Shown piece after piece: positions 1,103 through 2,218 of a stretch of DNA of 64,000 nucleotides (position 1 is the stretch's first letter; each line of letters begins with the position of its first letter). A program made the position numbers and the translations under genes. Source of the stretch: Streptosporangium brasiliense (GTDB lineage Bacteria > Actinomycetota > Actinomycetes > Streptosporangiales > Streptosporangiaceae); assembly GCF_030811595.1 (NCBI RefSeq), contig NZ_JAUSRB010000001.1, positions 1,860,001 to 1,924,000 on the forward strand, given 5' to 3'. The notes below the pieces were generated by a model. The model was not told where the DNA came from and searched no databases. It saw only the letters and a program-made list of their open reading frames with translations.

Positions 1103-1837
1103 ATGGCGACCAAGTTGAACCAGATCCTCGCCGTGGAGAAGGGCGTCAAGTCCGACGCCCAGCGCAAGGTGACCGACGCGTACCACACGGTCCAGAAGAA
1201 CACCCTGCTGTCGGGCATCTCCCGGACCTACCAGCCGATCGACGACGAGGGCGAGCACCTGCCGGCCGAGTCCACACGCGTGCAGGTCCAGGCCGAGGAC
1301 CTGCTCAAGCAGCTCGGCACCACGCTCACCCGGCTGTTCGACGTGACCGCCACCAAGGACTGGGCGAACTGCGTCGCGCGGGCCGACGTCAGGGTGGACG
1401 GCGCCACCCTGCTGGAGAACGTGCCGGTCACCTACCTGCTCTTCCTGGAGAAGCAGCTGGTCGACCTGCACACCTTCGTCGCCAAGCTGCCCGTCCTCGA
1501 CGCGGCGGAGACGTGGACGCTGGACCAGTCGACCGACTGCTGGCGGACCGAGCCGGTCAAGACGACCCGGACCAAGAAGGTGCCCCGCAACCACGTCAAG
1601 GCGGAGGCGACCGACAAGCACCCGGCCCAGGTCGAGGTCTACCACGAGGACATCGTGGTCGGTTTCTGGACCAAGGTCACCTTCTCCGGCGCCGTCCCGC
1701 GCAAGCGGGTCAACGAGCTCCTGGAGCGGGTCACCAGGCTCCAGGACGCCGTGAAGTTCGCCCGCGAGGAGGCCAACGGCACCGAGGTGGTCGACCAGCG
1801 CATCGGCGAGAAGGTGTTCGGCTACCTCCTGGGGTAG
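1103..1837 (+). CDS. conserved protein of unknown function beside tRNA-like RNAs
   Basis: A 244-residue soluble protein without signal peptide, membrane segment or a catalytic motif I can name. I recall homologues from actinomycetes and their phages beginning MATKLNQI, so I chose the ATG at 1103; upstream in-frame starts at 1055 and 1067 exist, and none has a good ribosome binding site. From memory this may be the family listed as DUF7873; not verified. It is rich in charged and aromatic residues, with a basic stretch near residues 154-170 (TRTKKVPRNHVK) that could touch nucleic acid. The two permuted tRNA-like RNAs begin within about 50 bases of its stop codon on the same strand and before any strong terminator, so one transcript may carry both. 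That makes an RNA-binding or RNA-handling role the simplest guess, but this is inference. Confidence 0.8.
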   Translation: MATKLNQILAVEKGVKSDAQRKVTDAYHTVQKNTLLSGISRTYQPIDDEGEHLPAESTRVQVQAEDLLKQLGTTLTRLFDVTATKDWANCVARADVRVDGATLLENVPVTYLLFLEKQLVDLHTFVAKLPVLDAAETWTLDQSTDCWRTEPVKTTRTKKVPRNHVKAEATDKHPAQVEVYHEDIVVGFWTKVTFSGAVPRKRVNELLERVTRLQDAVKFAREEANGTEVVDQRIGEKVFGYLLG

Positions 1838-1846
1838 CCTTCAAGA

Positions 1847-1881
1847 CTCCCCGTGGGAGCGCGGGGACGCGCGAAAGCGCG
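1847..1881 (+). other. two hairpins leading into the tRNA-like RNAs
   Basis: Two perfect hairpins lie between the stop codon of the upstream gene and the first RNA: CTCCC-CGT-GGGAG (1847-1859) and CGCGC-GAAA-GCGCG (1868-1881), the latter a five-pair stem with a GNRA tetraloop. Neither is followed by a T-run. They could be processing signals, a 5' domain of the RNA, or an attenuator between the protein gene and the RNAs. Confidence 0.5.
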
Positions 1882-1884
1882 GAA

Positions 1885-2017
1885 GCTGAAACTGAAATGT
1901 CAGACTGACACGCGGTTCAAGTGGGGGTTCGAGTCCCTCTCCCGGCACCGTCCGCGCCGGGATGGCCCAACTGGTAGAGGCGGCCGCTCAAGCTCAGACT
2001 CTCGCTCCAGGTTCAGC
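1885..2017 (+). ncRNA. permuted tRNA-like RNA A (3' half encoded before 5' half)
   Basis: All tRNA arms except a normal anticodon loop can be drawn, but the 3' half comes first. T-arm: stem 1923-1927/1935-1939 around the canonical loop TTCGAGT. Acceptor: TCCCGGC (1940-1946) pairs perfectly over 7 bp with GCCGGGA (1956-1962) and is closed by the 9-base loop ACCGTCCGC, which contains discriminator A and CC. D-arm: GCC/GGC (1965-1967/1979-1981) with T8, A14 and G18G19 in place. Anticodon-stem equivalent: GCCGC (1983-1987) with GCGGT (1912-1916). In place of an anticodon loop, the two ends run on into an outer helix, 1885-1894 with 2008-2017 (9 of 10 pairs). A small hairpin TGTCA-GAC-TGACA (1898-1910) sits inside. 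All pairing was done by eye. This matches either a circularly permuted pre-tRNA or a YrlA-type bacterial Y RNA, which mimics tRNA in the same order. Confidence 0.75.
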
Positions 2018-2029
2018 ATTCGCCGCCGA

Positions 2030-2166
2030 GCGTCAGATCGACCGAGGGAAGGCAGTGATGGTCGGGTGTGGGTTCGAGTCCCGCTGGACGCTCCACATGC
2101 GTTCGTAGCTTAATGGCAGAGCACGACATCGTTATGAATGACCGGCCCTCTTAAACGCGCTGACGC
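2030..2166 (+). ncRNA. permuted tRNA-like RNA B (3' half encoded before 5' half)
   Basis: A second RNA with the same inverted order, 12 bases after the first. T-arm: GTGGG/CCCGC (2068-2072/2080-2084) around TTCGAGT. Acceptor: TGGACGC (2085-2091) pairs over 7 bp, two of them G-U, with GCGTTCG (2099-2105), closed by the 7-base loop TCCACAT that encodes T73-CCA. D-arm: GCT/AGC (2108-2110/2120-2122) with T8, A14, G18G19. The arm sequences and T73 are tRNA-Gly-like. The stem in the anticodon position is CGAC (2124-2127) with GTCG (2061-2064); after a bulged G2060 it continues through ATC/GAT. Outer helices GAGGG/CCCTC (2044-2048/2146-2150) and GCGTCAG/CTGACGC (2030-2036/2160-2166) join the ends. 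No anticodon loop of seven bases can be formed. RNAs A and B differ in nearly every stem base yet keep the same architecture, which argues for selection on structure. Confidence 0.72.
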
Positions 2167-2185
2167 CGCGACATGGCGGCACCCA

Positions 2186-2218
2186 GGCCCCCGGGGAGTG
2201 GACACCTCCCCGGGGGCC
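2186..2218. terminator. 13-bp hairpin terminator, probably bidirectional
   Basis: Perfect inverted repeat GGCCCCCGGGGAG / CTCCCCGGGGGCC with a 7-base loop. It lies between the plus-strand RNA array and the end of the minus-strand HU gene, so it can close both. There is no U-tract, as is usual in high-GC actinomycetes. A smaller hairpin GCCGC/GCGGC (2165-2180) precedes it. Confidence 0.75.

Follow-up and report, generated by a model that had tools for sequence, protein, structure and literature searches.

A conserved pair of permuted tRNA-like RNA elements beside DUF7873 genes of actinobacteria and phages

A gene for a DUF7873 protein is followed on the same strand by two tandem elements, RNA1 and RNA2, each carrying a tRNA-like head in permuted order, in the window analysed here (the whole 64-kb stretch of Streptosporangium brasiliense DNA). 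The permuted layout of the heads, covarying stems, a near-constant DUF7873 neighbourhood, and base stems unlike those of Ro60-linked RNAs were observed. This pair of Y-type RNAs with DUF7873 in place of Ro60 is real, conserved, and undescribed in the open-licence literature searched. The gene and its two downstream elements probably constitute a conserved three-part unit, likely a Ro60-independent ribonucleoprotein of the Y type, in which DUF7873 would hold two tRNA mimics by their base stems. The parts of the locus, all on the forward strand, are listed below.

1103-1837 (+): gene of the DUF7873 protein (PF25283; 244 aa), proposed as partner of RNA1 and RNA2; Pfam score 392 bits against a cut-off of 27
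1846-1880 (+): two small hairpins between the DUF7873 stop codon and RNA1; from alignment A3 by eye and from folding
1885-2017 (+): RNA1; from the A3 alignment, consensus fold, and MFE
1885-1889/2013-2017 (+): outer helix of RNA1
1923-1981 (+): permuted tRNA-like head of RNA1; strict descriptor, model R1 70.1 bits
1923-1939 (+): T arm of RNA1
1940-1946/1956-1962 (+): acceptor strands of RNA1, TCCCGGC/GCCGGGA, 7/7 Watson-Crick pairs
between 1946 and 1956 (+): acceptor loop of RNA1, ACCGTCCGC, starting with ACCG
1965-1981 (+): D arm of RNA1
2022-2180 (+): RNA2; from alignment A4
2022-2027/2175-2180, 2031-2036/2160-2165, 2044-2052/2142-2150 (+): outer helices of RNA2; compensatory changes in A4
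2068-2122 (+): permuted tRNA-like head of RNA2; strict descriptor, model R1 66.8 bits
2068-2084 (+): T arm of RNA2
2085-2091/2099-2105 (+): acceptor strands of RNA2, TGGACGC/GCGTTCG, 7/7 pairs, two of them G-U
between 2091 and 2099 (+): acceptor loop of RNA2, TCCACAT
2108-2122 (+): D arm of RNA2
2150-2157 (+): conserved base-stem motif of RNA2, CUUAAACG, a candidate DUF7873 binding site
2186-2218 (+): G+C-rich, terminator-like inverted repeat after RNA2; read from the sequence

Both elements followed the same order, namely T arm, 3' acceptor strand (7 bp), short loop, 5' acceptor strand, and D arm, and the outer parts of each closed on themselves. No anticodon arm was formed in RNA1 or RNA2. 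The RNA1 base strands contain ARRYUB-type repeats, recognized by eye, and in the RNA2 base stem the CUUAAACG motif stands opposite AUCGACC (2037-2043). Relatives have hairpins similar to those at 1846-1880 with other sequences, and one 3-bp part of them appeared in the consensus fold. The initial annotation of this stretch had ended the feature at 2166; both RNAs were found there, but the outer helix of RNA2 reaches 2180. It had also placed CC(A) in the closing loops, which is correct for RNA2 (TCCA), whereas RNA1 has ACCG, that is, CC without CCA.

The strict descriptor, which combines a T arm, 7/7 acceptor pairs, and a D-arm pattern, was run on both strands of the window and matched only the heads of RNA1 and RNA2. 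The two 7-bp acceptor stems proposed initially were thus both recovered in full. When the halves were exchanged between RNA1 and RNA2, only 3 of 7 acceptor pairs could be formed from the sequence in either direction, and mismatched halves fail as had been claimed. The covariance model of the permuted core, R1, found these two elements as the only strong matches in the genome of the window, with the next match at 34.7 bits; both window sequences belonged to its training set. ARAGORN detected no tRNA in the window, and no Rfam model matched in it at the gathering threshold. When Rfam was searched in 1800-2250 down to E ≤10, YrlA was the best match for each RNA (27.2 and 21.9 bits, gathering 69), while an ordinary-order tRNA match at 1877-1947 gave 14 bits (E 5.7). 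The folding energies of the single sequences were unremarkable compared to shuffles (z -0.67 and -1.13), and the T arm did not form when RNA2 was folded freely as a single sequence. Therefore, the case depends on comparison with relatives.

A coding origin was also considered for the ARRYUB repeats, as an 86-aa frame (1853-2113) overlaps the RNAs and the repeats can be read as alternating Lys/Leu codons. This was dropped because the second repeat strand has an in-frame stop, seen by eye, in loci L135, L137, L142, and L143.

The linkage to DUF7873 was analyzed in 80 named actinobacterial loci, which were the top-ranking 80 among 507 confirmed matches. By the descriptor, 150 heads were present within 700 bases downstream of DUF7873, with at least one in 80/80 loci and at least two in 69/80. 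No heads were found in the same loci upstream, on the opposite strand, or in dinucleotide shuffles. These empty controls reject a chance origin of the heads and bear out the two tandem permuted tRNA-like elements of the initial annotation. R1 gave at least one match of 55 bits or more in 80/80 of these loci and two in 71/80, where 21 of the 80 had supplied training sequences. In 150 genomes of the same family, 89 of the 121 R1 matches listed at 50 bits or more lay beside DUF7873, 29 beside TROVE, and 3 beside neither. The 47 DUF7873 loci of these related genomes, one of them a remnant, exhibited two R1 matches of at least 50 bits in 42 cases and one in 5. The remnant (L039, G443:C104) has internal stops in DUF7873, and its RNA2-type element is still present. 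Two loci of marginal DUF7873 likeness (L037 at 1952-2770 and L038; genomes G497 and G468) had no permuted RNAs near by; the L037 protein scored 27.8 bits against the DUF7873 cut-off of 27.

In a wider sample of the phylum, the Streptomyces-type genomes G023 and G193 had strong R1 matches without DUF7873, and these matches lay beside TROVE. The genome of Deinobacterium chartae, included as a control, matched DUF7873 as well. Matches of 44-52 bits also occurred in genomes with neither DUF7873 nor TROVE, and four of the five such loci inspected (L323, L325, L328, and L331) were junctions of tandem ordinary tRNAs (Asp-Phe, Pro-Gly). Weak R1 matches in tRNA arrays therefore prove little. At L338 (about 2029-2092; G075:C16:24428-24491), in a genome without TROVE and DUF7873, a permuted tRNA-like element with 6/7 acceptor pairs adjoins an uncharacterized 326-aa protein, which may be a third partner.

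The stems covary strongly, and this includes the outer helices of RNA2. In alignment A4 (RNA2, 51 sequences), RNAalifold predicted 40 pairs, 29 of which showed double compensatory changes; among the tested outer and D pairs, such changes were present at 19/25. The outer helices and D stem of RNA2, which played no role in the selection of loci, were paired in 96.8% of cells, compared to 34-50% in slid controls, and contained 220 double-changed cells vs 63.8 in shuffles. The core alignment A5 (acceptor and T stems; 53 sequences from bacteria and viruses, RNA1 and RNA2 pooled) contained 208 double-changed cells vs 57.7 in shuffles, with contributions from all seven acceptor pairs; the percentage of paired cells in A5 is not independent evidence because the choice of sequences favoured paired stems. 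Covariation of the stems among relatives, raised at the outset as a means of checking the proposal, is thus present in both alignments. In six contigs related to the Pseudanabaena phage (L250-L255), the acceptor sequences differed and the pairing was kept. The consensus of RNA1 (A3) comprised 27 pairs, 11 of them with double changes, and the pairing of its base helix has little covariation support because the base strands are nearly invariant. The earlier statement that neither RNA forms an anticodon loop and that long outer helices close the ends instead agrees with these results, with covarying helices in RNA2 and little covariation in RNA1.

The layout of RNA1 and RNA2 resembles the circularly permuted tRNA genes of red algae and archaea, in which the 3' half comes first, the acceptor strands pair, and CC or CCA follows the 3' half. 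In contrast to those genes, the pair has long base helices in place of an anticodon arm and lies beside a protein gene. When the ends were joined and examined for an anticodon arm, covarying base helices were found instead in RNA2, and base helices with little covariation in RNA1. The suggestion that the RNAs are processed to circular or mature tRNAs was not supported, given the missing anticodon arm, the covarying outer helices of RNA2, and acceptor loops of 4 nt or less in 4/215 heads, among them those of L004 and L162.

The sequence following the acceptor strand exhibited a tRNA 3'-end signature. Of 236 distinct hairpins, 210 had C at position 74 and 77 had NCCA; for the ordinary tRNAs of viral loci, C74 was found in 248/250 and NCCA in 58. 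Furthermore, 18 loci encode CCA in less than one fifth of their ordinary tRNAs; in 14 of them, NCCA follows the acceptor in the permuted RNA listed first, and it is seldom present in the second. This signature would fit a mimic that displays CCA, and it would also fit an opening of the loop by tRNA-processing enzymes. On the second interpretation, the elements would be tRNA-like RNAs in two pieces: opening of the acceptor loop by RNase P and 3' processing would create a real CCA end, and the long base helix would join the halves, as in permuted tmRNA. In permuted two-piece tmRNA, a long helix replaces the anticodon arm in a tRNA-like domain of permuted order. RNA1 and RNA2 share both of these features with permuted tmRNA (RF04321). 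They differ from it in having two tRNA-like domains and a neighbour that matches DUF7873 only, and neither tmRNA nor permuted tmRNA matched at the gathering threshold in the window or down to E 10 in 1800-2250.

The two-piece interpretation draws its strength from a 3'-end signature without an obvious structural need in a loop, from the similar C74 preference of ordinary viral-locus tRNAs, and from the NCCA of the first RNA in 14 of the 18 loci that encode little CCA. The loops of 4 nt or less, few but real, argue against it, as do the rarity of NCCA in the second RNA of those 18 loci and the absence of a tmRNA match. In addition, the CCA of single phages (L146, and L181 as read from the sequence) pairs with the opposite side of the loop, and pairing between a leader and RCCA hinders RNase P according to the available part of one report (PMC9433436). 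Such pairing is nevertheless confined to few loops, since a general extension of the acceptor stem through CCA, tried as a candidate and rejected, gave at least 4 extra pairs in 9/69 long loops (shuffle mean 3.1). Taken together, a two-piece RNA appears unlikely, and the closed mimic held by DUF7873 is preferred.

A further possibility is that the elements act in cis, as a 3' region of the DUF7873 message that would autoregulate or stabilize it, and that no free RNA is made. Their position immediately after the gene and in its orientation is consistent with this, and in the window a terminator-like repeat is seen only after RNA2. However, a doubled tRNA mimicry would exceed what such a role needs, and YrlA RNAs, whose head is the same, are described as individual RNAs 90-150 nt long in the portion of the source available (PMC8394870). 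A purely cis-acting role is considered improbable, and free RNAs bound by DUF7873 remain the favoured reading.

The comparison with Y RNAs bears on whether the pair could be ordinary YrlA RNAs that use Ro60 encoded elsewhere in the genome, with DUF7873 as a mere neighbour. Like YrlA (RF02553), the DUF7873-linked RNAs have a head composed of a T arm, a capped acceptor stem, and a D arm, together with a closing base helix, and their genes lie beside that of the proposed protein partner; Ro60-type RNAs also occur sometimes as several in tandem (L220-L239). They are unlike YrlA in that DUF7873 replaces TROVE as the neighbour, two distinct RNAs stand in fixed order, the base-stem motifs are others, and the loop carries the tRNA 3'-end signature. 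For the base stems, 26 permuted RNAs were read in 20 Ro60-type loci of the same family (L220-L239); one of these loci, L233, has no TROVE near by. Their heads were as in the DUF7873 loci. Their base stems, read by eye, were of the CCCGGUGCG...CUCGGG type in 20 RNAs and of the GGGUCGAA...AUAUCCG type in 6. In the DUF7873 loci, the motif CTTAAAYG was present in the RNA2 base stem of 44/69 bacterial, 16/28 viral, and 3/5 named phage sequences (expected ≤0.06 per group), and it was found in none of 102 RNA1s and none of the 26 Ro60-type RNAs. As compared by eye and by this one motif count, the DUF7873-linked and Ro60-linked RNAs have a common tRNA-like head and a different conserved base stem.

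The claim that no Ro60 (TROVE) gene is present here can be extended, since none was found in the window's own genome either. Among the 47 DUF7873 genomes, with the two marginal DUF7873 matches left out, 33 had a TROVE match and 14 had none, the window's genome being one of the latter. Where the Rfam YrlA model matched, the DUF7873 RNAs scored 21.9-38.2 bits and the Ro60-type loci tested 32.2-51.8 bits; the gathering score of 69 is a weak test for YrlA because the Ro60-type RNAs of related genomes also fall below it. The identical head layout, the TROVE matches in 33 of 47 genomes, and the adjacency of the two modules in Spongiactinospora would suit ordinary YrlA RNAs. In that genus (L059 3816-4491; G516:C53:97585-100140), DUF7873, RNA1, RNA2, two more permuted elements, and TROVE occur on the same strand. 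Against this, the 14 genomes without a TROVE match include that of the window, Ro60 loci have their own RNAs with other base stems, and the DUF7873 linkage reaches diverse phages. Ordinary YrlA RNAs are therefore judged quite improbable. The layout is Y RNA-like, and the pair was not filed as YrlA because its neighbour and its base stems both differ from those of YrlA. The sequence evidence gives good support to the proposal of Y-type RNAs that are not tied to Ro60 and have the neighbouring protein as partner, through the linkage to DUF7873, the lack of TROVE, the same head, and the different base stems.

Ordinary tRNA order in homologues, which the initial annotation had named as evidence against its proposal, was read by ARAGORN at 6/215 heads, none in the window. 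These readings span the T arm of RNA1 and the strand upstream of it at the bacterial loci L080, L105, L122, L123, and L125 and the viral locus L133 (Phe, Leu, Ser, or undetermined). They were taken as by-products of the T arm and hairpins because the permuted acceptor pairs 7/7 in each, although single loci may have the ordinary order; they are perhaps an alternative fold or an ancestral trace. An explanation by tRNA genes that are decayed, rearranged, or in ordinary order, and that lack the proposed structure, is highly improbable, since the plainly tRNA-like halves and these six readings are outweighed by the small number of such heads, the complete permuted acceptors, and the compensatory changes kept across bacterial and phage lineages.

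In the preferred reading, a DUF7873 particle with two tRNA mimics, the elements would be transcribed as RNAs. The head is common and the base tracks the protein; therefore, DUF7873 is proposed to hold the base, and this is the main reason for the assignment. DUF7873 is predicted to grip both RNAs by their base stems, with CUUAAACG/AUCRA in RNA2 and the ARRYUB repeats in RNA1 as putative sites. The tRNA-like heads would stay free for enzymes that act on tRNA and could serve as a decoy or a tether, by analogy with the YrlA head and PNPase. In the accessible text on YrlA, the base stem tethers Rsr (Ro60); the tRNA-like head is a substrate for modification by DusA and TruB and a binding partner of PNPase (PMC8394870). 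A possible inhibition of an anticodon nuclease by the YrlA head has been suggested by the authors of work on the Salmonella RNA repair operon (PMC7790460, available section).

DUF7873 was present in 73 phage records, of phages named after Vibrio (29), Gordonia (12), Rhizobium (12), Klebsiella (7), Serratia (6), Arthrobacter (3), Pseudanabaena (2), Rhodococcus (1), and Microcoleus (1). The descriptor detected 65 heads in 44 viral contigs, with heads in 39/44 loci and at least two in 26, and the controls were empty. In 11 phage loci that were read, at least one permuted head followed DUF7873 in 10, and the linkage of the protein to the RNAs extends to phages named after Klebsiella, Rhizobium, Vibrio, and Pseudanabaena. 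The feature tables of these 11 records annotate no RNA feature over the heads, and small hypothetical ORFs overlap some of them. In 4/11 (Arthrobacter Mimi, Gordonia GodonK, Rhodococcus NiceHouse, and Rhizobium RHph_TM21B), a cluster of tRNA genes surrounds the module or stops immediately ahead of it.

Among viral loci fetched after R1 had been built, R1 matched 11/11 and the descriptor found 7/7 acceptor pairs in 10/11, where 8 of the 11 were close kin of training loci. In a second later set, R1 matched 20/20; the descriptor gave 7/7 pairs in 16/20 and 6/7 in one more. L272, L273, and L290 of this set had R1 matches only and no descriptor head. L290, the weakest of the 20 (33.4 bits), is suspect as a possible junction of ordinary tRNAs, because such junctions reach 44-52 bits elsewhere. 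Two Vibrio phages each had a single head with an R1 score of 26 bits. Heads were absent at L138, L139, L169 (partial DUF7873), and the Microcoleus phage L178. After position 3723 in L138 and L139, a terminator-like hairpin and another gene come after the phage DUF7873 gene, and the RNA pair is missing. Two tmRNA matches were noted in phage loci. In Gordonia phage GodonK (L179 1387-1915), a tmRNA match reached 90 bits where the record annotates tRNA-His only, and in Pseudanabaena phage PA-SR01 (L174 6763-6942), a weak permuted-tmRNA match of 31.9 bits (gathering 47) lies about 2 kb after DUF7873.

The module is carried by bacteria of the soil and by many phages. Defence systems that target tRNA can be evaded by means of phage tRNAs (PMC10264068 and PMC11555353, as far as the available text goes), and one CRISPR effector cuts the CCA tails of tRNA (PMC12851939, in the portion available). 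The module resembles such phage tRNAs in being phage-borne and tRNA-like, with tRNA genes clustered around it in 4/11 records. Unlike them, RNA1 and RNA2 are without an anticodon arm and would act as a mimic, not as a replacement tRNA. In phages, where some copies lie in tRNA arrays, the likeliest use would be to weaken or divert the action of host nucleases directed against tRNA. TROVE proteins are themselves carried by some jumbo phages (PMC7824862, available part). A broader and more tentative scenario, doubtful at present, is a class of Ro60-independent Y-type particles that crosses phyla and combines DUF7873 with a fixed pair of closed tRNA mimics having a built-in 3'-end sequence. It might have travelled with phages of Actinobacteria, Proteobacteria, and Cyanobacteria, serving as a protection against tRNA-cutting immune nucleases, and been domesticated in actinobacterial chromosomes.

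Bacterial Y RNAs are described with Ro60 as their protein partner in the literature accessible here. As far as the accessible text of the open-licence literature searched goes, no non-Ro60 partner of Y-type RNAs was named, and no paper in open-licence literature was found to use the word DUF7873. If the present reading is true, a second, unrelated-looking partner with a matched pair of tRNA mimics would mean that different proteins have taken up tRNA mimicry on a base stem as a scaffold. DUF7873, with more than 7000 sequence clusters and no known function, would gain a first testable role. Furthermore, the presence in phages, in some within tRNA arrays, would tie the module to the question of how phages answer tRNA-destroying defence.

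The DUF7873 family comprised 7245 homologues among 7999 scored candidates. The 244-aa protein has 20 invariant positions over 49 diverse members. Its AF2 model (pLDDT 92.1, pTM 0.77) consists of long helices and a long beta hairpin. The sequence gave no convincing match to PDB chains and no match to TROVE (PF05731), DUF7873 being the only family at E ≤1. A TROVE-like fold was considered; the model had no confident fold match in PDB or BFVD, and none that marked RNA-binding. The best BFVD row by probability was a crAss-like phage protein (BFVD A0A7M1RW91; Foldseek 0.99, TM 0.44, E 0.055), a possible distant relative.
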